Virus record (IMG/VR): IMGVR_UViG_3300030451_002700
Coordinates: 7,493 to 41,336 of that record
From: a virus
Strand: one strand, 5' to 3'
Length of the DNA: 33,844 nucleotides
Shown one piece after another: positions 3,769 through 33,155 of the stretch (its first letter is position 1; each line of letters starts with the position of its first letter). Position numbers and translations under genes: made by a program. The notes under the pieces were generated by a model. That model did no database searches. It was not told the origin of the DNA and was given only the letters and a program-made list of their open reading frames with translations.

Positions 3769-5634
3769 ATGTTTAAGAACGAAGTAGCAGAATTTATATA
3801 TAAAAGAACGTATTCACGTTGGCTAGAAGAAGAGGGCAGACGAGAGGACTGGCCAGAAACAATAGAAAGATTTATTGGTTTTTTAATTTCAAAAAGACCA
3901 GATATTCCAGATAAAACAATAAGTAAAATAAGAAAGTACATGACAGAATTTGCAGTTATGCCATCAATGAGATTCCTTTGGGCTGCTGGCCCTGCTGCTG
4001 ACTTTGACAACACCTGCATTTACAACTGTGCTTTCGGTAAGATTAACGCCGTCGAAGCTTTCGCCGAATGTCTATACATACTGATGTGTGGAACGGGGTA
4101 TGGCTTTTCAGTGGAACAAGAAGAAGTAGAGAAATTACCTGAAGTGCCTGAAATAAAAAGCGGTCAAGCATTAGCCAAAGTAGTTATAGATGACTCTAAG
4201 GCTGGCTGGGCTGATTCAGTAAAGACATTGATGGGAAGTCTTTATGACGGCCAAAACCTTTATTTCGATTACTCAGAGATTAGACCTGAAGGAGCTCGCC
4301 TCAACACAATGGGTGGTAGAGCCTCAGGTCCACAACCTCTAGTAAAGTTGCATGATTTCATACGTGAAACTATGCACAACGCACAAGGTCGAAAGCTCAC
4401 AACACTTGAAGCTCACGATATATGTAATCAAATTGCAGAAATAGTGGTTGTGGGTGGAGTCAGGCGCAGCTCACAAATCTCATTGAGTGACCTTGATGAC
4501 AATGATATGCGTCACGCAAAAGAGTGGCCTTTCCCTATAAAAAGAGCTATGGCAAATAACAGTGCTGTGTTCAGGGAAAAGCCCTCAGCTGCAGACTTCT
4601 TAGTTGAGTGGGGTGCCCTAGCTAAATCAGGAACAGGAGAGCGTGGTATATTTAATTTAGAAGCTGCGCAAAACAGGGCACCAGCTAGACGTTACGCTCC
4701 TAAGATACAAGGCACTAATCCTTGTGGAGAAATAATGTTACGGGACATGGAGTTTTGTAACCTTTCGGAAGTAGTTATAAGAGCCGATGATGACCTAGAT
4801 ACGTTGTTGGACAAAGTGGAGACAGCTACATGGCTTGGTGTAATACAAGCAACCTTTACAGACTTCCCATACCTAAGAAAAGAGTGGAAAAAGAACTGTG
4901 ATGTAGAACGTCTACTAGGCGTTAGTTTGACAGGACAAATGGATAACCCCTCTATTCTTACTTCGGAGTGCTTAAAAGCGCTTAAATCGCGTGTTTTACG
5001 CATATCTCGTAAAGCAGCAGATATATTGGACATAAATGTACCAGTTGCTACTACTTGTGTTAAGCCATCAGGAACTGTCAGCCAACTAGTGGACTCAGCA
5101 TCAGGTGTTCATCCCAGATACTCTCAATACTACATCCGTCGTTACAGAATATCCTCCCGTGACCCATTGTTTCAAATGATGAAAGATGCAGGTATCAAGG
5201 CTACACCAGAGGTGGGACAGGATGAAGCCACTGCAACTACATGGGTACTAGAGTTTCCAGTCAAATCACCAGATGGTTGTATAACACGTAAGGATGTCTC
5301 AGCTCTTGACCAACTAAGTCACTATAAAAACTTACAACATAACTGGTGTGAACATAATGCTAGTATGACTGTGTATGTTAGAGATGACGAATGGTTCGAA
5401 GTAGGCAACTGGGTGTATAAAAACTGGGATATTATCAATGGTGTATCCTTCTTGCCGTATGATGGTGGTAAGTATAAACTAGCTCCATACGAAGAAATAG
5501 ACGTGCATACCTACGAAAGGCTTATAAAGGGTCTCCCCGTAATAGATTATACACAATTGTCACAATATGAGATGACAGACCATACCCAAGGTAAGGCTGA
5601 ATATGCTTGTGTTGGCGACAAATGTGAAATATAA
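3769..5634 (+). CDS. nrdJ: Adenosylcobalamin-dependent (class II) ribonucleotide reductase, RTPR/NrdJ type
   Basis: Reduces ribonucleotides to deoxyribonucleotides for viral DNA synthesis, using adenosylcobalamin to make the thiyl radical. The sequence follows the monomeric RTPR subgroup (Lactobacillus leichmannii type). It has YNCAF with Cys87, MCGTGYGFSVEQ, the FDYSEIRPEGARL segment, GGVRRSSQISL, and NPCGEI with Cys319 (radical cysteine) and Glu321. EFCNLSE supplies Cys330, spaced 11 residues from Cys319 as in the known enzyme, and ATTCVKPSGTVSQL follows later. It ends in CVGDKCEI, the C-x4-C shuttle pair (Cys614, Cys619). All expected catalytic residues are present. At 621 residues it is shorter than the roughly 740-residue bacterial protein. 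AAAGGAG precedes the start. The substrate level (di- or triphosphate) is taken from the family. Confidence 0.95.
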   Translation: MFKNEVAEFIYKRTYSRWLEEEGRREDWPETIERFIGFLISKRPDIPDKTISKIRKYMTEFAVMPSMRFLWAAGPAADFDNTCIYNCAFGKINAVEAFAECLYILMCGTGYGFSVEQEEVEKLPEVPEIKSGQALAKVVIDDSKAGWADSVKTLMGSLYDGQNLYFDYSEIRPEGARLNTMGGRASGPQPLVKLHDFIRETMHNAQGRKLTTLEAHDICNQIAEIVVVGGVRRSSQISLSDLDDNDMRHAKEWPFPIKRAMANNSAVFREKPSAADFLVEWGALAKSGTGERGIFNLEAAQNRAPARRYAPKIQGTNPCGEIMLRDMEFCNLSEVVIRADDDLDTLLDKVETATWLGVIQATFTDFPYLRKEWKKNCDVERLLGVSLTGQMDNPSILTSECLKALKSRVLRISRKAADILDINVPVATTCVKPSGTVSQLVDSASGVHPRYSQYYIRRYRISSRDPLFQMMKDAGIKATPEVGQDEATATTWVLEFPVKSPDGCITRKDVSALDQLSHYKNLQHNWCEHNASMTVYVRDDEWFEVGNWVYKNWDIINGVSFLPYDGGKYKLAPYEEIDVHTYERLIKGLPVIDYTQLSQYEMTDHTQGKAEYACVGDKCEI

Positions 5635-18412: not shown

Positions 18413-19006
18413 TTATAGGTCTGTGGTTATAGCACCGTCGTCGCCATCAGTTCCGTAAGATGGTGTAATGTATGACATCAACTCTAATGTTTCATCCATA
18501 GTTCCATCTGTGTTAACGGTTACTGTGTGACCGGTTATACAACAGCCTTTTATAGTTATAACTTCATTAGTTCCAGCGTTAGCTACAATCTCTATGTATA
18601 CCCTGTAACCTCTGTCTCCAGTTGGTTGTGCTAATCCATCGTCAGCTGAACCTTGGTTATTCAAAGCACCAAATCGTGCTTCGTTAAAAAGAACATCCAT
18701 AAATTCGTCTGTCTTTTTACGTGTTAGTGTGACTGTGGTTTCTTTTTTAATGTCTGCTTTAGTTTGTGAGCGCATACCGAAATATGAAATATCTTCATCC
18801 ATAGAACCAATGCTTAGTTCACAAGCTGTAAGTTGACCAAAAACTTCTGTTTCACTACCGGGACTTGCTGGTATTAAAAAGGTTGTAGATGGACTTGCTG
18901 AAACAGTTACTTGAGATGAAGCTCCTGCAGCTGGTGTAACACCTACTCCTCTGTTGGACTCTGTGCTCATTTTTACAGTAACATCTTTACCTAAGAAAAA
19001 TACCAT
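18413..19006 (-). CDS. Major tail tube protein, paralog B (197 aa)
   Basis: A tail tube-type beta protein, one of two adjacent related genes. Shared landmarks with its neighbour are FLGKDV at the start, LSIGSMDED in the middle, KKETTVTLTRKKTDEFMDVL, and a C-terminal TGHTVTVNTDGTMDETLELM. Tube proteins stack as hexameric rings around the tape measure. The C-terminal G-H-T-V-T-h-N-x-D-G-T-x-x-E-T-L-E pattern resembles tube proteins of siphoviruses. The start at 19006 follows GGAG with 11-base spacing, 5 bases after the paralog's stop. Which copy is the main tube subunit cannot be told from sequence. Confidence 0.75.
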   Translation of the reverse strand: MVFFLGKDVTVKMSTESNRGVGVTPAAGASSQVTVSASPSTTFLIPASPGSETEVFGQLTACELSIGSMDEDISYFGMRSQTKADIKKETTVTLTRKKTDEFMDVLFNEARFGALNNQGSADDGLAQPTGDRGYRVYIEIVANAGTNEVITIKGCCITGHTVTVNTDGTMDETLELMSYITPSYGTDGDDGAITTDL

Positions 19007-19011
19007 AAGTA

Positions 19012-19764
19012 TCAGAGCTCCGCAACAGGTGTGCTAGTCCTATTAAATCCAGTTGTATCTCCGCTGATGTTACTAGGTTTTTCTACACCCGGAGCTACTG
19101 AAGAAGTAAATTCCAGAGTTTCCTCTTGAGTACCATCTGCGTTAAGGGTCACAGTGTGACCAGTCATGGTAGCATTTCTTACAGTGAATAATTCACCGCT
19201 AATGGTACTTTTCAAAACAATGTGTAATCTAAATCCGTAAACACAATCTGATGTAGTACCTGATTCTACTACGTCTCCCATGAATTGAGAGCCATCATTA
19301 ATTTTACAAAGATTGTTAGCTGTATCATAAACAATCCCAAAACGTGCTCCTTGCCTAGTTGCGTCTGTGCTGCTACCGAAAAAATCAGCATCGAGACTTG
19401 GCCCATTGAACAACGTATCATAAAACTCATCGTCTTTTTTGCGAGTAATTGTGACGACTGTCTCTTTTCTAAGTTCCACTTTTTGCATTATTTGTGGTTT
19501 ACCTAGAAAAGGTCCAACATCTTCGTCAGATACTCCAATTGACAGGTCAATACCTGTTATGTCTTTAATTACACCTTTACGAACCGTAGCGTCATCTAAC
19601 ATTGGTGGTACAATCTTTTGTGTGGTGTGAAGTGCAAGGTTTTGTAATGCTATTTTTTCTGAGCTAAGCATTAAAACTTGTTCATCACCGTCTGCACTAC
19701 CAGAGCAGAGGTCAGATTCAGTTGTAAGATATAATTCTACATCTCTTCCTAGGAAATATGTCAT
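19012..19764 (-). CDS. Tail tube protein, paralog A (250 aa)
   Basis: First gene of the tail transcription unit. It shares FLGRDV, LSIGVSDED, RKETVVTITRKKDDEFYDTL and TGHTVTLNADGTQEETLEFT with the gene after it, so the two arose by duplication. It is 53 residues longer, mainly through a longer N-terminal segment and an insertion after the middle block (DSGSQ-type loop with NNLCKINDGSQFMGDVVES). The longer copy may form a specialised ring, a minor subunit, or decorate the tube. AAAAGGAG is about 10 bases upstream of the ATG, and a probable promoter lies 79 bases upstream. Confidence 0.72.
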   Translation of the reverse strand: MTYFLGRDVELYLTTESDLCSGSADGDEQVLMLSSEKIALQNLALHTTQKIVPPMLDDATVRKGVIKDITGIDLSIGVSDEDVGPFLGKPQIMQKVELRKETVVTITRKKDDEFYDTLFNGPSLDADFFGSSTDATRQGARFGIVYDTANNLCKINDGSQFMGDVVESGTTSDCVYGFRLHIVLKSTISGELFTVRNATMTGHTVTLNADGTQEETLEFTSSVAPGVEKPSNISGDTTGFNRTSTPVAEL

Positions 19765-22100: not shown

Positions 22101-23059
22101 TAATCGTAAGCCCTCCTTCTAGCATCGTCACGACCACGTGTTCTAACACAGTTAAAGATTATATATCCATCTGTCATATCTTTCAAGGAATGTACGTGCC
22201 ATGATACTGATTTGTAGTACTCTATATCTTTTATTTGTAACGTATCTGTGTTGTCTGCGTTGTATTCTATCCTGAAAATTCTTAGGTCGTTTTCATAATC
22301 AAATGAACCCCCTGTAGTAACTGGTACATTATATCGTGTCCCTGTTTGATAAATACTCGTTGCAGAAGTACCTGACACAAATGGTACATCTACCGTAAGC
22401 CAATTATTATCTAGCAACACAAAATTATCATTGTCCCAGTTAACTCTATATGCTGAATTAGTACCACCATGATAAGACCTGATAGCTTTTAATTCTACAC
22501 TACCACTACCTCTTATCTTAAATCTTAATCTATCTGCTTCTAAAGTATTTTTAGCAGTAGTTTCGTAAAGTAAATTACCATTACCAGTGGCAGTTAAAGT
22601 TATACTTTCTCCGTCACTAGCAACTGAGCCAGTACCTGTCCAATTTGTAGTACCAGTGGTAGGGACTGAGAAGATTGTTCTATAGTTTGTAATTAATCTG
22701 TCCCATCCTTCTATCTCATTGAAGTTAGTATTGTTATCTTGGTCAAAATTAGGAAGATTTTTTATAGTAGTTATATTTGGAGTGTATATTCTAGCAGCTC
22801 CAATGATATTGTTACCTTGTCTTTCTTGTTGATAATCTGCAGTAACTGTAGGTCTAATAATTGCAGGTAAATCAGGTACCAAAATCTCATTTGAACCTAT
22901 GGTTCCAGATGGTACACCATAGTTATCTGTTTTATATATAGCTGGTCTGTGATAAGTTACTTTTTGAGCTTGCTCAGTTCGATATCTCAGTGCGCGAAAC
23001 ACCCTGTTCATATTCAAAGCACCCGGACGGACACCTTGAGAACCAATCAAACCGGGCAT
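22100..23059 (-). CDS. Neck / head-closure-like protein with inserted beta-sandwich domain, 319 aa
   Basis: Joined to the upstream gene by TAATG, with GGAGG 6 bases upstream. The outer parts look like one neck protein: residues 1-130 (NMNRVFRALRYRTEQAQKVT, then GWDRLITNYRTIFSVP) and about 283-319 (HSLKDMTDGYIIFNCVRTRG). Between them, about 133-282 read as a separate beta-rich module. It has WTGTGSVASDGESITLTATG, ADRLRFKIRGSGSVELKAIR, WLTVDVPF and DLRIFRIEYNADNTDTLQIK. This is the style of carbohydrate-binding or galactose-binding-like sandwiches. An added surface domain would place a binding module at the head-tail junction. The two-part reading is inference. Confidence 0.6.
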   Translation of the reverse strand: MPGLIGSQGVRPGALNMNRVFRALRYRTEQAQKVTYHRPAIYKTDNYGVPSGTIGSNEILVPDLPAIIRPTVTADYQQERQGNNIIGAARIYTPNITTIKNLPNFDQDNNTNFNEIEGWDRLITNYRTIFSVPTTGTTNWTGTGSVASDGESITLTATGNGNLLYETTAKNTLEADRLRFKIRGSGSVELKAIRSYHGGTNSAYRVNWDNDNFVLLDNNWLTVDVPFVSGTSATSIYQTGTRYNVPVTTGGSFDYENDLRIFRIEYNADNTDTLQIKDIEYYKSVSWHVHSLKDMTDGYIIFNCVRTRGRDDARRRAYD

Positions 23060-23547
23060 TAATAACCTCCGTCGCCTCTAGTGCCACGAGGTCTTGGATA
23101 CATTTCCTTCGTAGCGTTAACTCCTGTAACGTTTTCATCCCAGTTAACTCTACCGAGATATGGGTCTGCATTGTATGTTGTAGTCTTTATACTTAAGCTT
23201 TGTTTCATAACTAACTGTTGGTCAGCTAGTTCTTTGAAGTGTATGTATGCATCATCCTCATAGTAAACTGCTAAGTCACCAACTTGTATTCTTTCTATAC
23301 CCATACCATTTTGTGCTATACATGCAAGATAACAAGTATAATATGCCACTGCATTATCATATGCGGCATCATTGTCCATAGGGTCAGTAGAATCATAAGT
23401 CAAACCAGTCTGTTCAGTAAACCACTCAGTAGATATACTAATTAAAATGTCTAGAGTGTCATTATCTAGTTCTTCTTGTTCTATACCAGCTAAGAGTCTT
23501 ATACGGTCTCTCAGTCCAGCGAGTGTCGTTATACTTGTTACTGCCAT
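23059..23547 (-). CDS. Head-tail connector protein (gp6/gp15-like)
   Basis: 162 residues. The N-terminal helix-turn pattern (LAGLRDRIRLLAGIEQEELD, then DILISISTEWFTEQTGLTYD) and a central helix (DNAVAYYTCYLACIAQNGMG) are those of helical adaptor proteins that bind the portal, and GDLAVYYED resembles the loop that follows. The C-terminus is extended and polar (YPRPRGTRGDGGY). It starts 1 base after the stop of the small upstream gene and leads the two further neck proteins, matching usual neck gene order. Portal and terminase are not in the window. Confidence 0.7.
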   Translation of the reverse strand: MAVTSITTLAGLRDRIRLLAGIEQEELDNDTLDILISISTEWFTEQTGLTYDSTDPMDNDAAYDNAVAYYTCYLACIAQNGMGIERIQVGDLAVYYEDDAYIHFKELADQQLVMKQSLSIKTTTYNADPYLGRVNWDENVTGVNATKEMYPRPRGTRGDGGY

Positions 23548-23795: not shown

Positions 23796-26700
23796 CTAAG
23801 CCTTGACTATCCAGACACCAGTATCAACTAAAAGGAACGTTTTGTTAGCACCTCTGTGTGTACCAATCGAAACTGTAGAGGACGCACTATTACTAGAACC
23901 TTCATAGATAACATCAGAAGTACCTTGCGCTACTGTAACTGATAATGTGCTAGCTGGGTCGGCTGCTACATTGTTAACAATAGTTGTTTCAAAACCAACT
24001 CTAGCTGCTGTACCTTCTGGTAATTGGACTGGTATAGCTCCAACACCCGGTCCTACTTCTGGTTTAATAAGTGCGAAGTTACCTAGTGGTGTAACTATAG
24101 CAGGGTTTGCATAAACTCCACCTGCAGCGTCATATAAATAAAGGGCTTCTGTTTGGTTTTGAATTATACCTCCATTAACTTTGAGAAGTTGGTTATCAAA
24201 CTCTCCATATATTAGAGGAGAGTCAGATTCTGCATTGTGAATATAAAGTTTGTTTGATTCTGCACCAGTAGAACTTGGTCCTGCATGTGAACCTATGTAT
24301 ACGTTATTTGAACTTGCTCCAGTAGCTTTCTTTCCTGCGTTTATTCCTATGGCAGTATTTTGGTAGTTTTGAGTTCCACTATATAAAGCTTGATGTCCAA
24401 GAACAACATTTCCACCTGAACCCGATTGTTGATTTAATCCTGCTTCGAATCCGACAATAACAGAAGCATTCTGTGTTGTTATAGAAGCCGCTGCTCTAGT
24501 ACCTAGTACTGTGTTTTTCTCAGCACTTGTAGCGGCCGTAAGTGCTTCTCTTCCTACTGCAACGTTATTATGTGCTGTATGGATTCCAGAATTATCTCCT
24601 TTACCTGCTTTGTAACCTATGAATGTATTGTGGTTACCATGTGGATAGTATCCTGCTTGGAATCCTACCATAGTACTTCCAGATGATTCTGAACTATAAC
24701 CAGCTAGAGTACCTACCATAACGTTATCTGATTGTGTCATTTCATAACCAGCACTATGTCCTATAGCAGTGTTGGAAGTTTGTGTGGTAGCAGCATTTAA
24801 TGCTTGTCTACCAATGGCGATATTGTTATCACCCGTAGTTGAATTTTGGAATGCTTGATAACCTATTGCTACGTTATCATGCGCAGTAGTGTAATCCAAC
24901 ATAGCACTCGTACCGATAGCTACGTTTGTTCCCCCTGTTGAATTACCAGCAGAACCATACATAGCTTGCCATCCTATAGCAATGTTATGGTTACCACCAG
25001 AGGCTTCATATAAAGCAGAATCCCCAATACCTACATTACCTGTATAAGCTACGCTGTTTTCTCCCTGAGCTGCTGTATAACCTATAAAAACGTTATTTGT
25101 ACCTTGTTGTATATTCAAACCAGCTTGGAATCCCATTACTACATTTCTACCATTACCAGTGCTTGTACCATTAGTAAATTCATAAGATTTAAAAGCGTCA
25201 TAACCTACTGCTACGTTTCTTTGTACAGCTGTACCAGACCTTAAAGCTGCGTGACCTACCGCAGTGTTCTGATAACCTGTAGTGTTTTTCTGCATTGAGG
25301 TATATCCTATAGCTGTATTACTATAACCAGTAGTTATATCCTCCAATGCAAATCCGCCTACAGCTTGGTTTTGGTCTCCTGTTGTTATATCCATTCCAGA
25401 GAATGCACCTACAAAGACATTATAATTTGCCATTGCACTTGCTGATGCGTTACCTTTACCAGCACTCTCTCCTACCAAGACATTGTAGTTTCCTGATGGC
25501 ATGGAAGACCCTGCTGCTTTACCTACTGCTACGTTAGATGTTCCACTAACTAACGAATTCAATACTTCATGACCAATAGCGGTTTGATTGTTACCAGTAA
25601 CTAGACTGCTTAAAGCTGCCCGACCCATCACAGTTAAATTACGGGCTGTTGCTGATGATGCTGCATTATAACCAATAATAACATTTTCATATGATGTAGA
25701 TGTTTGTGCTTTACCTGCTTCCCAACCAATAGTAACGTTACCTAAAGCTACTCCATTTTTAGCTGCATTATAACCAATAGTAACATGTCTACTTTGTGTT
25801 GTATTTCCTGAACCTGCTGCATATCCTATAGCAACCGCTTCTGATGCAGTTGTCCAGTCATATCCTGCAAAATTTCCAACTACTACATTTTTCTCAGCAG
25901 AAGTAATATTGAGTAGTGCTTCTCTTCCTATACCTACATTTTCTGCGGCGCCTGAGTCTACAACTCCATAACCTGCTTTATATCCCATCCAAACGTTGTG
26001 ATTCCCTGTAGGATGATATCCTGCTTGATATCCCACCATAACCGAATTAGCTGAACCTTTAGCTATAGCTCCTGCACTATTACCCAATGCTGCATTCTTA
26101 TCACCTGTAGCACCAGATAAAGCATATTGTCCTATACCTGTAGCATTATCAGCAGAAGAGTATTTCATAGCACCAAAACCTACTGCGGTTGTACTGCCTG
26201 CACCATCTACCTCACTTAGAGCATCAACTCCTATGACTGTGTTATAACTAGAAGTTGTAACTGCTTTCATTGCAGATTTACCTACAACTGTATGACTATC
26301 TCCTGTAGTTAAGTCTCTAGCTGCTAAATGTCCTATTGCTGTAGTAGCTGCAGTAGATGTAGCGCCTGATAGAGCTCTATAACCTATAGCGACTACTTGT
26401 GTGGATTCTTGGTTTTGCGCAAACAAAGCCTGTCCTATTACAACGTTATAACTTGAACCTGATGCATAACGCATTGCGTTAACACCAATTGCTACGTTAT
26501 CTTGATTTGTTACTGAATAGTTACCACCTTGCATGGTTTGGTATCCTATTGCTATATTATTTTGATGGGTTGCATTAGTACCAGATTGTAATACTCTATA
26601 TCCTACACCGGTGTTAACATTACCTTTTAAATATTGTCCAGCATTTTGACCAACCATAGTGTGGTATGTACCACTTGCGTTTGTAGATGTATTATGACCT

Positions 26701-29700
26701 ATTGCTGTCATACCGGCAGCAGTTCCTGATACCATTTTACCAGCATTTTCTCCAACCAATACTAAACCGCCGTTAGTGTTTGTTTCACCGGCTTCAGAAC
26801 CAATAGCGACTCCTCCGCCTGTTGTTAATTTACCTGCTTGTAATCCTATGAATACTCCACGACCTGTACCATTATAGTGAGATTGAAATCCAATAGCAAC
26901 ATCGTAAGTAGCTCCAACACCAGCTCCTAATGCTTGGTGTCCAACAGCTGTGACATATTGTGCTGTAACACTAGCACCTGCGTTATAACCTATTAATGTA
27001 TTTCCAGTATGTGTTGACAGAGATGTACCTGCATTAACACCTATTAATGTATTATAGTCTCCAGTAGTTGCTTGATATCCTGCTCGCCTGCCTATAAATG
27101 TATTATAATCTCCATTACTTAAACTTTGACCTGCTCCATCACCCACTGCTGTGTTAGCAACTGCGCCATCTACATTCATTAAAGCATTATAACCAACTCC
27201 TACGTTTAAGTTAGCTGCTGCACCAGCTGTACCAAATCCAGCATTGTACCCTACCCAAGTATTGTAATTACCAGTTGGGTGATAACCAGATTGATAACCT
27301 ACAGCTACTCCTCCAGCTCCACCAGACACTTTAGTCATAGCTGACATTCCTACAGCTACATTATAATCATTAGAGCCAGTTCTTAAAGCACTACTTCCTA
27401 CGGCTACATTAGACCCTCCTGTATGATAAATAGCGGCATTATAACCTATCAAAGTATTGTGACTGTGGTCTGATAAAGAAAGTCCAGCTTCTTTACCGAC
27501 TAATGTATTAGATGCTCCATCAACTAATCCACTTCCAGCAGAATGGCCTATAGCTGTATTATTGTTGGCTGTAGTCATTGCATCTAGTGCATATGGACCA
27601 ATTGCTACTGCTGAGTCTCCAGAAGTTAAATTTTTAAGTGCATCATATCCTATACCTACATTTAAGCTTGATGTAACAAGTCCTGCTTGCATTGCATTTT
27701 TACCTATAGCTATGTTATAATTACCAGTTGTTGCAGTCTTATATGCATCACTACCTAAAACAACGTTATAACTACCACCTAATATATTAGAACCTGCTTG
27801 GTCGCCTACTATAATGTTTTCCTGTGCAGTAGTTAAATCATATCCTGCTTCGTTACCCACTATTATATTTTTAAAACCAGTTGTTGCATTTAATCCTGCG
27901 TAATTACCTACAGCTACGTTTTGGTACCCTGTAAATCCTGTACCAGCTCCTTGTAAAGCACCGTATCCTACACCTACATTCTGATTAGCAGCGCCAGAAA
28001 TATTTCTCATGGCATAAGCACCCACTGCAACTGTTTGGTCATTGTCTGCACCAGTCTCACCTTCCATTGTGTTATGACCGATTGCTACGTTGTTAGTCCC
28101 GTCATTTTTAGATAAAGCAAAATAACCTACAGCTACGTTTTGGTTATTTCCATCAGCTGCATAGCCAGCATGCTCACCAATGAATACATTATAGCTAGTT
28201 GTTGATGCATTTAAACCTGCATTATTGCCTAAAAATATATTGCTTACTCCTGTGGTTATTGCTGTACCTGCATTGTAACCCATGACTATATTATTGTCAC
28301 CTGTAGTAACAGAATCCAAAGCCCCAAATCCAAAGGCAAAATTCTTTTGAGCAGAGTTAGTTGTGGAAGCTGGATTACTTCCTATATAAATAGAATTGGT
28401 CTCAGTTAGTGCATCAACAAAGTTACCTATAGTATCAGTACCTGTACCTATGGCTAACTTACCAGAAGATAAAGAACCACCGAATGTACCTCCTCCTCCT
28501 CCTCCTGCTGTCAAATCGTGGTCTGTACCATCATCATCAGTAAAAATTAATTTATTAGGTGAATCATTCTTGACCCAAAGTTGACCCCAACCTGCATTAG
28601 TTGTTTCGTGGTCTGCACGTTCTTCTATAGATAATGCACCCACTAAAGACATACTAGTCTTAGGACTTGACGTTCCTACACCAAACTTATAACCAGCTGT
28701 TCTAACATATAAGTTAGCATTATTGTTCATCAAATGTAAATTGTTACTTGCTATAATATGGTCAGTTTGAAATCTTATATTACTTCCATCACCAGCATCT
28801 AAACGCATCACGTAACCGTTAGTAGATGTATTTGTAAATCGAGCAACCTCAGTTGAAGTATCTTTATATACATCTAATTTGTAAGTAGGGTTAGTTGTGC
28901 CTATACCTACATTCTGTGAAGTATCTATACGCATAGCTTCTACATTGTTAGCACTAGCAAACCGTAATTCCATATCTGCATTTTGTCCTTGGAAAGAAAA
29001 TGTTTTAGCATTGAAATTATGTTGTATGTTAGCAGCGTTAGCATCTGTTGCACCACCAAATACTATATATCCACCCCTACTAGATGAATCACTAGATAAT
29101 ATAGATATACCTGCTCTGTGGTTATTTCTTATTACTAATTCCTCTGCGTCTGATTCTGGGGTTTGGGTAACAGTACCATTTGAACCAATAATCTCTAACT
29201 TACCAGCAGGTGTAGTTGTGCCTATACCTACATTACTACCTGATAAAGTCATCACTCCACCGTGTAGTTGTAAGTTTTGAGTAGCAGAGGTCCCTGTCCA
29301 TAAAAACGGAACGTAATAACTAGAACCATCATAAGTACGTATCTTAAATATTCGACTTCCTGATTGTTCAAATACAGTTTCGGCAGTATCAAATTCTAAA
29401 TCGTTAGATGTAGTTCCATTATCGATTCTAATTTTACCTGCTACTTCAAGTTTTGTGTTAGGTGTAGCTGTACCTATACCTACTAGACTGCCTGATGTAA
29501 CGTGTATAGCTGGTGTAGTTGTATCATAAGCGTAAACCTCTAATGGTACTTTGTCTGATGCTCCACTAATACCAAACTGAGCCGTTGATGTTGTAGATGT
29601 ATCATATCCCACTTGCCCAAACCTTGTAAAGAAATAAGACCATCTTCTATTTTGACTACCTAAAGTAACACTAGAATCAGAAGTACCAAGTAAAGATGTA

Positions 29701-30320
29701 TAAACTTGCGTAGAGCCTAAGAAAAGACTTCCACCTATACCTTCTATTCTACCATACCCTGTACCGTTATTACTAGTATCTCCAAATCTTATACCTCTAG
29801 AATTAGAGTTAGGCATATATATTCCATAAGTAGCAGTTCCTTGTTGTACTTCTAAAGGATAATTGATTGTATTTGTACCTATACCAACACCAGCAGCTTT
29901 AATATTCATAGTGTTTGTGTTGCCAGCGTAAAATCTAACATTGTCAGTTTCGAAACCTAGATAAGTGTCTGTATCACCATTATGTACAAGATTACTACCA
30001 AGAAGTAAATTACTAGTCATGGTCACATTTGTGCCATTGTATGTAAAACCTGAGTTACCAGCAAAGGCACCACCATTGTTATATTGTACCTGTGTATCAG
30101 AACCACCGGGCGTGCCTCCACCTCCTACTAAAGAATCTAAATCAACGGTAACATCACCTAGCCCACCGTTACGGGCTAAAGAAAGTCTGTAATTAGGGCC
30201 ACCACCTAATGTTGCCCCAGTAACATAATAATTTTGCCCAGCTGGTGCTGCGGCTTCTATTCTCTTGTTACCTACAGCGTTATGAGCCAAGCTCCTTAAT
30301 ACTTTTGTATATCTTGCCAT
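23796..30320 (-). CDS. Giant repeat fibre protein, 2174 aa (hemagglutinin/YadA-head-like repeats)
   Basis: Probably a trimeric fibre that binds the host surface. Residues 1-120 are an anchor-like region (VDLDSLVGGGGTPGGSDTQV). Residues about 140-570 contain five spaced modules of the G-h-G-T-x-x-P-x-x-K-L-x-h type (VGIGTATPNTKLEVAGKI, VGIGTTTPAGKLEI, VGIGTTNPTYKLDV), ending in QLWVKNDSPNKLIFTDDDGT, a block common in marine virus structural proteins. Residues about 656-2013 are a solenoid of about 79 copies of a motif such as NVAIGYQAG. The C-terminus (NKLYIHNAESDSPLIYGEFD onward) closes the solenoid and adds a beta-rich tip. No protease or glycosidase motif was seen. It forms its own transcription unit between a terminator and the neck promoter. 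Location on head, neck or tail cannot be told. Confidence 0.85.
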   Translation of the reverse strand: MARYTKVLRSLAHNAVGNKRIEAAAPAGQNYYVTGATLGGGPNYRLSLARNGGLGDVTVDLDSLVGGGGTPGGSDTQVQYNNGGAFAGNSGFTYNGTNVTMTSNLLLGSNLVHNGDTDTYLGFETDNVRFYAGNTNTMNIKAAGVGIGTNTINYPLEVQQGTATYGIYMPNSNSRGIRFGDTSNNGTGYGRIEGIGGSLFLGSTQVYTSLLGTSDSSVTLGSQNRRWSYFFTRFGQVGYDTSTTSTAQFGISGASDKVPLEVYAYDTTTPAIHVTSGSLVGIGTATPNTKLEVAGKIRIDNGTTSNDLEFDTAETVFEQSGSRIFKIRTYDGSSYYVPFLWTGTSATQNLQLHGGVMTLSGSNVGIGTTTPAGKLEIIGSNGTVTQTPESDAEELVIRNNHRAGISILSSDSSSRGGYIVFGGATDANAANIQHNFNAKTFSFQGQNADMELRFASANNVEAMRIDTSQNVGIGTTNPTYKLDVYKDTSTEVARFTNTSTNGYVMRLDAGDGSNIRFQTDHIIASNNLHLMNNNANLYVRTAGYKFGVGTSSPKTSMSLVGALSIEERADHETTNAGWGQLWVKNDSPNKLIFTDDDGTDHDLTAGGGGGGTFGGSLSSGKLAIGTGTDTIGNFVDALTETNSIYIGSNPASTTNSAQKNFAFGFGALDSVTTGDNNIVMGYNAGTAITTGVSNIFLGNNAGLNASTTSYNVFIGEHAGYAADGNNQNVAVGYFALSKNDGTNNVAIGHNTMEGETGADNDQTVAVGAYAMRNISGAANQNVGVGYGALQGAGTGFTGYQNVAVGNYAGLNATTGFKNIIVGNEAGYDLTTAQENIIVGDQAGSNILGGSYNVVLGSDAYKTATTGNYNIAIGKNAMQAGLVTSSLNVGIGYDALKNLTSGDSAVAIGPYALDAMTTANNNTAIGHSAGSGLVDGASNTLVGKEAGLSLSDHSHNTLIGYNAAIYHTGGSNVAVGSSALRTGSNDYNVAVGMSAMTKVSGGAGGVAVGYQSGYHPTGNYNTWVGYNAGFGTAGAAANLNVGVGYNALMNVDGAVANTAVGDGAGQSLSNGDYNTFIGRRAGYQATTGDYNTLIGVNAGTSLSTHTGNTLIGYNAGASVTAQYVTAVGHQALGAGVGATYDVAIGFQSHYNGTGRGVFIGLQAGKLTTGGGVAIGSEAGETNTNGGLVLVGENAGKMVSGTAAGMTAIGHNTSTNASGTYHTMVGQNAGQYLKGNVNTGVGYRVLQSGTNATHQNNIAIGYQTMQGGNYSVTNQDNVAIGVNAMRYASGSSYNVVIGQALFAQNQESTQVVAIGYRALSGATSTAATTAIGHLAARDLTTGDSHTVVGKSAMKAVTTSSYNTVIGVDALSEVDGAGSTTAVGFGAMKYSSADNATGIGQYALSGATGDKNAALGNSAGAIAKGSANSVMVGYQAGYHPTGNHNVWMGYKAGYGVVDSGAAENVGIGREALLNITSAEKNVVVGNFAGYDWTTASEAVAIGYAAGSGNTTQSRHVTIGYNAAKNGVALGNVTIGWEAGKAQTSTSYENVIIGYNAASSATARNLTVMGRAALSSLVTGNNQTAIGHEVLNSLVSGTSNVAVGKAAGSSMPSGNYNVLVGESAGKGNASASAMANYNVFVGAFSGMDITTGDQNQAVGGFALEDITTGYSNTAIGYTSMQKNTTGYQNTAVGHAALRSGTAVQRNVAVGYDAFKSYEFTNGTSTGNGRNVVMGFQAGLNIQQGTNNVFIGYTAAQGENSVAYTGNVGIGDSALYEASGGNHNIAIGWQAMYGSAGNSTGGTNVAIGTSAMLDYTTAHDNVAIGYQAFQNSTTGDNNIAIGRQALNAATTQTSNTAIGHSAGYEMTQSDNVMVGTLAGYSSESSGSTMVGFQAGYYPHGNHNTFIGYKAGKGDNSGIHTAHNNVAVGREALTAATSAEKNTVLGTRAAASITTQNASVIVGFEAGLNQQSGSGGNVVLGHQALYSGTQNYQNTAIGINAGKKATGASSNNVYIGSHAGPSSTGAESNKLYIHNAESDSPLIYGEFDNQLLKVNGGIIQNQTEALYLYDAAGGVYANPAIVTPLGNFALIKPEVGPGVGAIPVQLPEGTAARVGFETTIVNNVAADPASTLSVTVAQGTSDVIYEGSSNSASSTVSIGTHRGANKTFLLVDTGVWIVKA
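24501..24670 (-). repeat. Higher-order repeat copy 3 inside the giant fibre
   Basis: Begins VGFQAGYYPHGNHNTFIGYK and ends in AEKNTVLG. It aligns over about 55 residues with copies at 25875-26038 and 27145-27303, sharing Y-x-P-x-G-N-x-N, G-Y-x-A-G and G-R-E-A-L blocks. Confidence 0.7.
25875..26038 (-). repeat. Higher-order repeat copy 2 inside the giant fibre
   Basis: Begins VGYQAGYHPTGNHNVWMGYK and includes ENVGIGREALLNITSAEKNV. The GREAL and SAEKN blocks are shared most closely with copy 3, the GYHPTGN block with copy 1. Confidence 0.7.
27145..27303 (-). repeat. Higher-order repeat copy 1 inside the giant fibre
   Basis: Begins VGYQSGYHPTGNYNTWVGYN and continues LNVGVGYNALMNVDGAVANT. It lies 1265 bases from copy 2, which lies 1368 bases from copy 3, so a block of roughly 430 residues appears to have been duplicated. 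Confidence 0.65.
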
Positions 30321-30759: not shown

Positions 30760-31974
30760 TTATGCACCTATGATTGTTTGTGTAAACCTTACTGTTGCAA
30801 CCCAATAGACAGTGCTACCTGCTGCACCTGTGACCATAATTTCTAATGTGTCATTAGTGTTATTAGCTTGTACGGATACGTCCCATGCGGCCGCATCCTC
30901 ACCTACTACGTTTATAGTTGGTGTACCTACTAATGCAGTTGTTCCAGCGTCATTCTTTATTGCTCCAGTAATTAAGTAAGCACATGTTTCTGTGCTGTTT
31001 TTTCTTCGTCCAACAACATCTGCTGTAAACACAACAGACTGATTTTGTATGATTGGTGGTCTAGTTTGTGCCCCGCCACCATTTATCATAGAGTGTAATG
31101 GTACTCCTGTAGCATCAGCTGTAACACGTCCCATCATGAACTCAGTCATTTGTATACTACCTTGAATACCAACTCCTGAACCATCTAAGTGTCTACCGCC
31201 ACCCATTTCTCTAGCACCTTGTATGTTACCACTAACATATTGACCGTGGACCAAAGAAAAAGGAGTGTTGTTAGTCATTTTATTAGCATCACCAAACATA
31301 ACTAGTCCAGTAGCGTTATTAGCATCACAAACCTGATTCCTACCTATAACTACACCATTATTATGACCTTCGGTTGCAGTGTTACCACTACCTCCTATTA
31401 GTGCATTTTCATCACGTGATGAAAAATTAGTGTGACCATACATGACATTTTGCTTAGCACCTCCACTTATAGTATGTGCTACTCCTGCCATAAAAGACCC
31501 AGTGAGATTATCGTTTTTCAGAATGTGGTCCATTCCAAATACACCACTATATGGACCCATACTACCTGATATATCATTACCGAAAATAAAGCAGTCTTGT
31601 GTCTTTGATGAAATATAATGGTCAGTACCCCAAACAAATAATCGTTTGGTATTGTTGTAATAACTACCTGCTATTGTAATGTCGTGACCAGATAAAAAGT
31701 GCCCAGCTTCATCTCGCGTGTCGTCACCGGGGTATATCGGGTCAATTTTTATTTTGTAACCCATTGCTATTCCATAATCTGCAAGAGTACCAGCAGGGTC
31801 AGTATATGTTATTCCACCACTTGTCACACCACCGCCGGGTTCTGAAAATTGTACTGTGTTTTCAGGAAGGAACTTATATACACCATCTACCAGTGTATTA
31901 TTACTTGGTTGAACAGCTAAATATCTAGCACTTCTGCTCCTGTTTTTTAATAATTTATTGTTAAATATTGTCAT
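30760..31974 (-). CDS. Fibre-like virion protein with hemagglutinin-type repeats, 404 aa
   Basis: The central part has irregular beta-roll repeats: FIFGNDISG, GVFGMDHIL, NVMYGHTNFSS, ALIGGSGNTATEGHNN, GVVIGRNQVCD and LVMFGDANKM. This is the same general fold class as the giant fibre but with little sequence likeness. The C-terminal 110 residues form a separate beta-sandwich (QSVVFTADVVGRRKNSTETC, then WDVSVQANNTNDTLEIMVTG), a tip domain type I remember from phage fibres. It starts behind AAGGAGATAAAAA. Its place in the capsid unit, directly after the major capsid protein, suggests a head fibre or decoration, though a tail fibre cannot be excluded. Confidence 0.7.
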   Translation of the reverse strand: MTIFNNKLLKNRSRSARYLAVQPSNNTLVDGVYKFLPENTVQFSEPGGGVTSGGITYTDPAGTLADYGIAMGYKIKIDPIYPGDDTRDEAGHFLSGHDITIAGSYYNNTKRLFVWGTDHYISSKTQDCFIFGNDISGSMGPYSGVFGMDHILKNDNLTGSFMAGVAHTISGGAKQNVMYGHTNFSSRDENALIGGSGNTATEGHNNGVVIGRNQVCDANNATGLVMFGDANKMTNNTPFSLVHGQYVSGNIQGAREMGGGRHLDGSGVGIQGSIQMTEFMMGRVTADATGVPLHSMINGGGAQTRPPIIQNQSVVFTADVVGRRKNSTETCAYLITGAIKNDAGTTALVGTPTINVVGEDAAAWDVSVQANNTNDTLEIMVTGAAGSTVYWVATVRFTQTIIGA

Positions 31975-32048: not shown

Positions 32049-33155
32049 TTAACCAGAAGCTCCGTTAATTGTGATTATACCAACTTCAGGTCTAATAATC
32101 TTCAAACCATATCTCATAGACATGTAAGAACCGACAATTCCGAAACCGGGGTTTGCCTCTTCTACAGTCAATGGTCTTCTTTCTACATAAACCATTGGTT
32201 TAGATGAAAGGTCGAAGACACCAAATCTTGTTGATGGTACGTATGCGTTTACAACGACAGTTAATCCATATATAGAACCGACGATACCGGTTGAAGCTGT
32301 CTGATTAACAGGGCTTCCGGGCATCATAGCTGACATAGTTGGGTTAGCTGCTGCACCTGCTTCTCCTTGTGCTGCTGTGAAAGCAGTTACAAAGTCACCT
32401 AGGTCTAATAAAGACTTATAGTGAGCTGGAGAAATGAACAAGTGTGAAGCGTTGTATCCACGTGTTGCGACTCTGTCGATAGCTTCAGTGATATCTGAGA
32501 GAGCTAAGTCTCCAGCAGCATCACCAGCTGCACGAACGTATGAGTTTCGAATCAATCTTGCGTCTGATTCGTTACCGTATGAGTCTAGACGTGATGTTGA
32601 AGCATCGATTTGAGCTGCAGTCATACCACTTCCATAAAATCCAGATTGTGGATTTGTAGAGAAAGTAGTGATGTTTGTTTCTGAAGTAGTCTCATCGATT
32701 GCGATTGTTCCGAAGTCTGCGTTTGCTGCGTGAGCACCGAAAATGACTTTGACAACGTGGTCAGTCATGTGCCTGTCTACAGCTCTGCGGGCTTCATTCA
32801 AAGCCATTTCTACTTCGTTGAATCTTGAATCTTCAATCATTCTTCGGGTTACACCTACTGCAATACCCCACTCTTTAACTGAAACTCTCTCGGAGCGTAG
32901 TTTTGTGTGTTGGTATTCTGGGGTGGTTCCCTCATTTATTTGTTCCAATTTCATGGAAGGCTTAGCTAGAGTAATATCAATATTACCACCAGTATCAGTT
33001 GTCATAGGTTCAGCGAAAAAAGACATTACAGGAAGCTCTGCGACTTTGTAGTCCATGATTGCTTCTTTGTAATCAATAAGTACTCTTTCACCTACACCAC
33101 CGTCTACTGAACCAGTGTTTAGTGTTGTTAACAAACCGGGAGTTGCGTCTACCAT
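32049..33155 (-). CDS. Major capsid protein, HK97 fold
   Basis: 368 residues, forming the icosahedral shell. The sequence shows the expected order: an N-terminal arm, then the E-loop strand region (GGNIDITLAKPSMKLEQINE). The spine helix area follows (VSVKEWGIAVGVTRRMIEDS, then ALNEARRAVDRHMTDHVVKV). Next is an A-domain segment (HLFISPAHYKSLLDLGDFVT) and a C-terminal P/A-domain end (GFGIVGSYMSMRYGLKIIRP). The pattern R-R-M-I-E-D-S and the D-R-H-M helix are typical of phage and archaeal-virus capsid proteins of this fold. There is no long N-terminal delta domain, so scaffolding is probably by a separate protein. AAGGTGAT precedes the start. The decoration protein gene lies 10 bases upstream. 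Confidence 0.9.
   Translation of the reverse strand: MVDATPGLLTTLNTGSVDGGVGERVLIDYKEAIMDYKVAELPVMSFFAEPMTTDTGGNIDITLAKPSMKLEQINEGTTPEYQHTKLRSERVSVKEWGIAVGVTRRMIEDSRFNEVEMALNEARRAVDRHMTDHVVKVIFGAHAANADFGTIAIDETTSETNITTFSTNPQSGFYGSGMTAAQIDASTSRLDSYGNESDARLIRNSYVRAAGDAAGDLALSDITEAIDRVATRGYNASHLFISPAHYKSLLDLGDFVTAFTAAQGEAGAAANPTMSAMMPGSPVNQTASTGIVGSIYGLTVVVNAYVPSTRFGVFDLSSKPMVYVERRPLTVEEANPGFGIVGSYMSMRYGLKIIRPEVGIITINGASG

Follow-up and report, generated by a model that had tools for sequence, protein, structure and literature searches.

The question raised by this locus is what kind of protein a phage would build from some eighty diverged copies of one short repeat, how such an array is maintained and where on the virion it would be carried. 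The window, a stretch of 33,844 nucleotides, represents bases 7493-41336 of a 41,336-base IMG/VR virus record. We consider it very likely that in this uncultivated tailed phage the open reading frame at 23796-30320 encodes a virion fibre, comprising an N-terminal tag, exchangeable VGIGT modules, a rod of 79 coils of the YadA-head type of beta-roll, a cap and a tip. The features of the gene and its neighbours are as follows.

23796..30320, minus strand: fibre gene, open reading frame of 2174 aa (PHROG 4636, tail spike protein, E 5.7e-107)
30237..30320, minus strand: N-terminal anchor, residues 1-28, MARYTKVLRSLAHNAVGNKR..., retained in relatives by the proteins of this slot with either type of shaft
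28491..30236, minus strand: N-terminal modules, residues 29-610, a YYVTGATLGG domain and VGIGTxxPxxKLEV modules with a poly-Gly linker at the end
28489-28506: CCT run in the fibre gene, encoding the poly-Gly linker
28914..29234, minus strand: mobile 107-aa VGIGT module, a 321-nt difference from contig L003 with a 22-nt repeat at the junction
24255..28343, minus strand: array of 79 predicted beta-roll coils, residues 660-2022
27105..27362, minus strand: coils 20-24, first copy of a landmark block of five coils
25839..26096, minus strand: coils 45-49, second copy of the landmark block
24465..24725, minus strand: coils 71-75, third copy of the landmark block
24678..25739, minus strand: coils 52-71, exchanged recently between this virus and the L065 lineage (dS 0.07-0.17; capsid genes 1.21)
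23799..24254, minus strand: cap (NKLYIHNAESDSPLIYGEFD...) and C-terminal tip domain, residues 2023-2174
32049..33155, minus strand: major capsid protein (Pfam PF25209, E 5.5e-9), the query for finding relatives
23059..23547, minus strand: connector-like gene, across the fibre slot from the capsid gene (match to PF05135 at E 0.008, which is below cut-off)

The cap follows the pattern YIGxxAG..NKLYI..SPLIYGEFD and is succeeded by a tip of 130 residues, for which the AF2 model reached a pLDDT of 36. For tip and anchor, no match was found among cultured phages.

The original prediction of about 79 repeats at 24281-28350 agreed to within about 30 nt with the array delimited here, which lies in frame in the 2174-aa ORF. 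Scanning with a position-specific matrix built from the strict motif located 78 coils; the only gap, of 34 aa at residue 1203, holds one more, which brings the number to 79. Coil starts are spaced 15-24 aa apart, most often by 17 (43 of 77 intervals), giving a mean period of 17 aa, and the autocorrelation of the array peaks at lag 17 (0.216 against a background of about 0.08) and at lag 34. The strict motif N..hG..[AGS] occurs 54 times, while across 1000 shuffles it averaged 3.0 and never exceeded 10. Repeats can be collapsed or expanded in short-read assemblies, and the coil number might on that account be an artefact, or else the product of recent expansion; we regard either as highly improbable. 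The coils share on average only 29% pairwise identity, which means that reads would be placed uniquely, and one diverged relative likewise has 79 coils. Furthermore, random misassembly of the array is unlikely because the same 79-coil array is present in a second IMG/VR contig, L003, in which the final 5118 nt of the fibre gene are identical to the window; the two records may derive from one population.

The fold of the coils was approached through an AF2 model of coils 65-72, for which the alignment consisted of eight other segments of the same array. This eight-coil model (pLDDT 80.6, pTM 0.78) has one 3-residue strand per coil. Its matches in the PDB included the ice-binding beta-roll 3ULT at Z 12.5 and, at Z 11.3-11.6 and 20-22% identity, the YadA-like heads of YadA (1P9H), AtaA (3WP8) and BoaA (3S6L), in keeping with the beta-roll that had been predicted. 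The layer pattern of the YadA left-handed parallel beta-roll is GxNSVAIGAxSxAx (PMC9543794). In the numbering of that paper, the Gly that is conserved at position 8 is present in all 78 matrix-defined coils; the core residues are mostly beta-branched, with V/T/I at position 5 in 75 coils and I/V at position 7 in 68, and the next position is A/S in 73. We read the coil length of 17 rather than 14 residues as a longer outer loop. The YadA_head family of Pfam (PF05658) had no match to the whole fibre protein at E 1 and its best segment, at E 0.054, was below cut-off; profile searches found no family for the array in Pfam or NCBIfam, and a PDB sequence search with the single fibre protein gave no match. 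Foldseek with the coil model returned nothing significant from the PDB (no E below 0.15) and matched many viral models, YadA-like phage proteins among them.

These comparisons also bear on a different fold, in which the coils would form a left-handed beta-helix of the hexapeptide type, with three faces and 18 residues per turn, instead of a two-faced beta-roll. The period of 17 is nearer to 18 than to 14, the PDB profile search gave weak matches to hexapeptide enzymes only (the best, for profile A3, being acyltransferases at E 0.0075), and such enzymes match the coil monomer model almost as well as the YadA-like heads do (Z up to 11.4), so that VIA-align separates the two folds by only about 1 Z. 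Against this, each 17 residues hold only one 3-residue strand and one [IV]Gxx[AS] motif, sequence identity to the enzymes is 3-15% as opposed to that of 20-22% to the YadA-like heads, and the matches in the viral library are YadA-like. The three-faced helix is thus a live rival but the weaker one, and we think it unlikely; a YadA-type beta-roll is the best reading of the model.

The fibre is of a known kind, the YadA-like left-handed beta-roll fibres of phages. The match to PHROG 4636 comprises 11 stretches confined to the array, and two structural-protein PHROGs, 6002 and 23837, likewise match there. By tblastn, the array has relatives in 80 records of cultured or named phages at about 30% identity, mainly marine cyanophages, pelagiphages and roseophages; relatives in marine phages are annotated as tail fibre or spike, and IMG/VR holds hundreds more. 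A single scan of bacterial genomes with an 87-aa segment, sensitive to near relatives only, found none.

In a survey of 129 viral loci with arrays, 88 ORFs were complete; the near-identical L003 was left out, and the use of three coil queries biases the sample. Their longest runs had a median of 29.5 coils, a 95th percentile of 58 and a maximum of 79, a number reached in one run by only one relative, L065. The largest total was 104 coils in Marine virus AG-345-L05 (cyanophage-like), interrupted into five blocks of up to 31 each. That protein, of 2491 aa (L054, 17556-25028), has cysteines at repeated positions in many of its coils, which is unusual for a virion rod. The expectation of one of the longest arrays of its type is thus upheld, and the array lies at the long extreme of a known class of fibre. 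The fibre itself had been expected to be very long, and in this respect the expectation seems overstated. With the rise of 4.8 Å per layer of the BpaC beta-roll (PMC9543794), 79 coils at 0.48 nm would give a shaft of about 38 nm, a modest rod in nanometres. Relatives with a collagen shaft in this slot would have rods of about 169-263 nm, the longest having 918 GXY residues at 0.286 nm each.

How did the array arise? The five-coil landmark block recurs with similar sequence near coils 20-24, 45-49 and 71-75, and the alignment of coils 19-23 with 44-48 scores 131.6 against a null maximum of 122.3 in 500 permutations. Because such internal block copies have dS values from 1.3 to saturated, they point to old duplication rather than recent expansion. 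Recent tandem expansion was rejected on the same values, and TRF found no array at the DNA level. L065 allows the history of the blocks to be followed between viruses. Its capsid protein is 64% identical to that of the window (dS 1.21) and its coils 46-79 are collinear with those of the window at 80% identity; dS along them falls in steps to 0.07 in coils 52-63 and 0.17 in coils 64-71, with flanks at 0.69-0.78. Coils 52-71 were thus exchanged with this distant lineage, and recently, since their dS is 0.07-0.17 compared with 1.21 for the capsid genes. Other blocks have moved: coils 19-23, 37-48 and 10-15 of the window correspond to coils 10-14, 3-14 and 37-42 of L065, respectively. In the L065 contig the array and the N-terminal part are in different frames with about 200 nt between them, perhaps through faulty assembly.

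The same holds for the parts on either side of the array. L065 and L066 have a tip in common (86%), whereas that of the window differs (27-29% identity) despite the partly shared array. L003, near-identical to the window in other respects, lacks the 107-aa VGIGT module, with the 22-nt repeat at the junction; L066 and the L065 contig have this module at about 89-90% DNA identity. Since the collinear dS steps, moved blocks, differing tips and mobile module all point in this direction, the fibre gene evolves by the exchange of modules, coil blocks and tips. The long-term maintenance that had been suggested is therefore right in that the coils diverged long ago, but the array has not been static. 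The dS contrast shows that arrays evolve by exchange of coil blocks between lineages rather than by fresh tandem expansion. We also considered whether the 79 coils common to the window and L065 reflect a conserved ruler, and rejected this reading: L066 has 20+45 coils, and the first 45 coils are not collinear.

Exchange seems to extend to the whole shaft. We compared 50 relatives of the capsid protein, reading the slot only where the contig reaches far enough. The slot gene starts with MARYxKVLKSLAHNAV or a diverged form of it. Behind this anchor, L006, L044, L066 and L065/L089 carry VGIGT modules and beta-roll coils (L004, L005, L009 and L013, placed with them, stop before any array), while L011, L012, L014, L026, L030, L033, L039, L040 and L045 carry a collagen GXY shaft, with a diverged anchor in L039 and L045. 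Matches to collagen (PF01391) reach E 2.5e-66 in L030 and 5.5e-40 in L040, both with the MARY anchor, and 1e-108 in L045, with the diverged one. Among the relatives that combine a similar anchor with a collagen shaft, capsid protein identity goes down to about 74%, and L040 has the collagen type of shaft with a capsid protein 90% identical to that of the window. On the capsid tree four shaft changes are needed, three of them forced by starred branches. A limited literature search found no paper on a swap of beta-roll and collagen behind one anchor.

A collagen triple helix is a trimer and needs three chains. Because the anchor is common to both shaft types, the beta-roll coils would then form a trimer as well, and the comparison supports the shaft as a trimeric, N-terminally anchored and exchangeable rod, possibly a replaceable spacer. 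The slot can be regarded as a natural exchange experiment, in which similar capsids have beta-roll or collagen rods behind the same tag, and the swap suggests that the chemistry of the rod is neutral provided that the rod is trimeric. The anchor offers a defined short tag for virion-docking tests. A sulfotransferase gene (PF13469, E 2.7e-19) is inserted in the slot beside a collagen fibre in L033 (2462-3292) and L022 (12565 onward) and might modify the fibre or host glycans. A large ORF downstream of the fibre in L066 (11951-13558) has a weak match to a G8 domain (PF10162, E 2.4e-6).

Gene order bears on where the fibre sits. It runs cement, capsid, fibre, connector-like gene and tape measure, and in relatives this series is preceded by terminase and portal. 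In relatives the slot directly follows the capsid gene or is separated from it by one to two small genes; in the window it is two genes away. The same fibre may therefore be mounted on the capsid or neck instead of the tail, as a fibre or decoration spike of the head that serves in reversible adhesion or as a spacer. The slot lies within the head module, between the major capsid and connector-like genes, a tail-fibre-like domain is found in a separate 1711-aa protein downstream of the tape measure, and two of three strong PHROGs are classed as head and packaging; collagen-like trimeric head spikes and phi29 head fibres are also known (PMC7602432). Gene order is indirect evidence, however, the best PHROG and the annotated relatives say tail fibre or spike, and no decoration fold was found in the N-terminus. 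Attachment to head or neck and attachment to the tail are, on this genomic evidence, about equally probable. Our fuller proposal is more tentative and falls a little short of even chances: that the capsid-proximal slot houses a plug-in rod, in which a conserved short tag takes either a 79-coil beta-roll or a collagen triple helix of some hundreds of residues, two unrelated trimeric rods substituting for one another with the socket unchanged, and that this rod is a capsid (head) fibre.

Between the capsid and fibre genes of the window lies a second, short repeat protein (30760-31974, minus strand) with paralogues in L020, L021, L026 and L030; relatives have one to two copies, and that of L021 has a weak match to LbR_Ice_bind (PF21300, E 7e-5, below cut-off). 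Two adjacent genes (18413-19006 and 19012-19764, minus strand) are paralogues across the group with no family match, and perhaps encode tail tube proteins. A ribonucleotide reductase is encoded at 3769-5634 on the plus strand (phrog_367, E 3.5e-161).

We propose that each coil forms one turn of a YadA-head-type beta-roll and that the fibre is a rigid, three-chain rod about 38 nm long, which would hold the C-terminal tip off the virion while the N-terminal tag plugs into it. Adhesion would reside in the tip and perhaps also in variable coil loops. The coils would serve as an interchangeable structural shaft. Lineages would trade tips, modules and blocks of coils with one another and would at times replace the rod as a whole by a collagen triple helix.

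Among known systems, the YadA-like heads (YadA 1P9H, AtaA 3WP8, BoaA 3S6L and BpaC 7O23) have the same core, [N/S]-[VTI]-A-[IV]-G-x-x-[A/S], and a rod-like role, and the first three share the beta-roll fold of the model at the Z values given above. Their coils have 14-15 residues, compared with 17 in the window fibre, and BpaC has 42 near-identical coils (PMC9543794) where the window fibre has 79 diverged ones. Trimeric autotransporter adhesins have a C-terminal outer-membrane anchor domain, whereas the window fibre is a phage gene in which Pfam found no such domain, either at the C-terminus or in the whole protein. The trimeric fibres or spikes on the capsids of SPP1 (gp12, collagen-like) and phi29 (gp8.5) (PMC7602432) are far shorter and are likened to the window fibre, whose head position is putative, by kind and not by sequence. 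Closest are the marine phage fibres of P-SSM2 (PSSM2_298), the Pelagibacter phages HTVC111P/112P, the Roseobacter phages CRP-1/CRP-7 and AG-345-L05, which have the same 17-aa coils at about 30% identity but as a rule 13-34 uninterrupted coils compared with 79. A pelagiphage tail fibre described from a metaviromic island (Mizuno et al. 2014, PMC3909814) likewise is marine and has a YadA-like domain in a hypervariable fibre; its N-terminus is T7-like, whereas the window fibre has a different short tag, behind which whole shaft types appear to be swapped.
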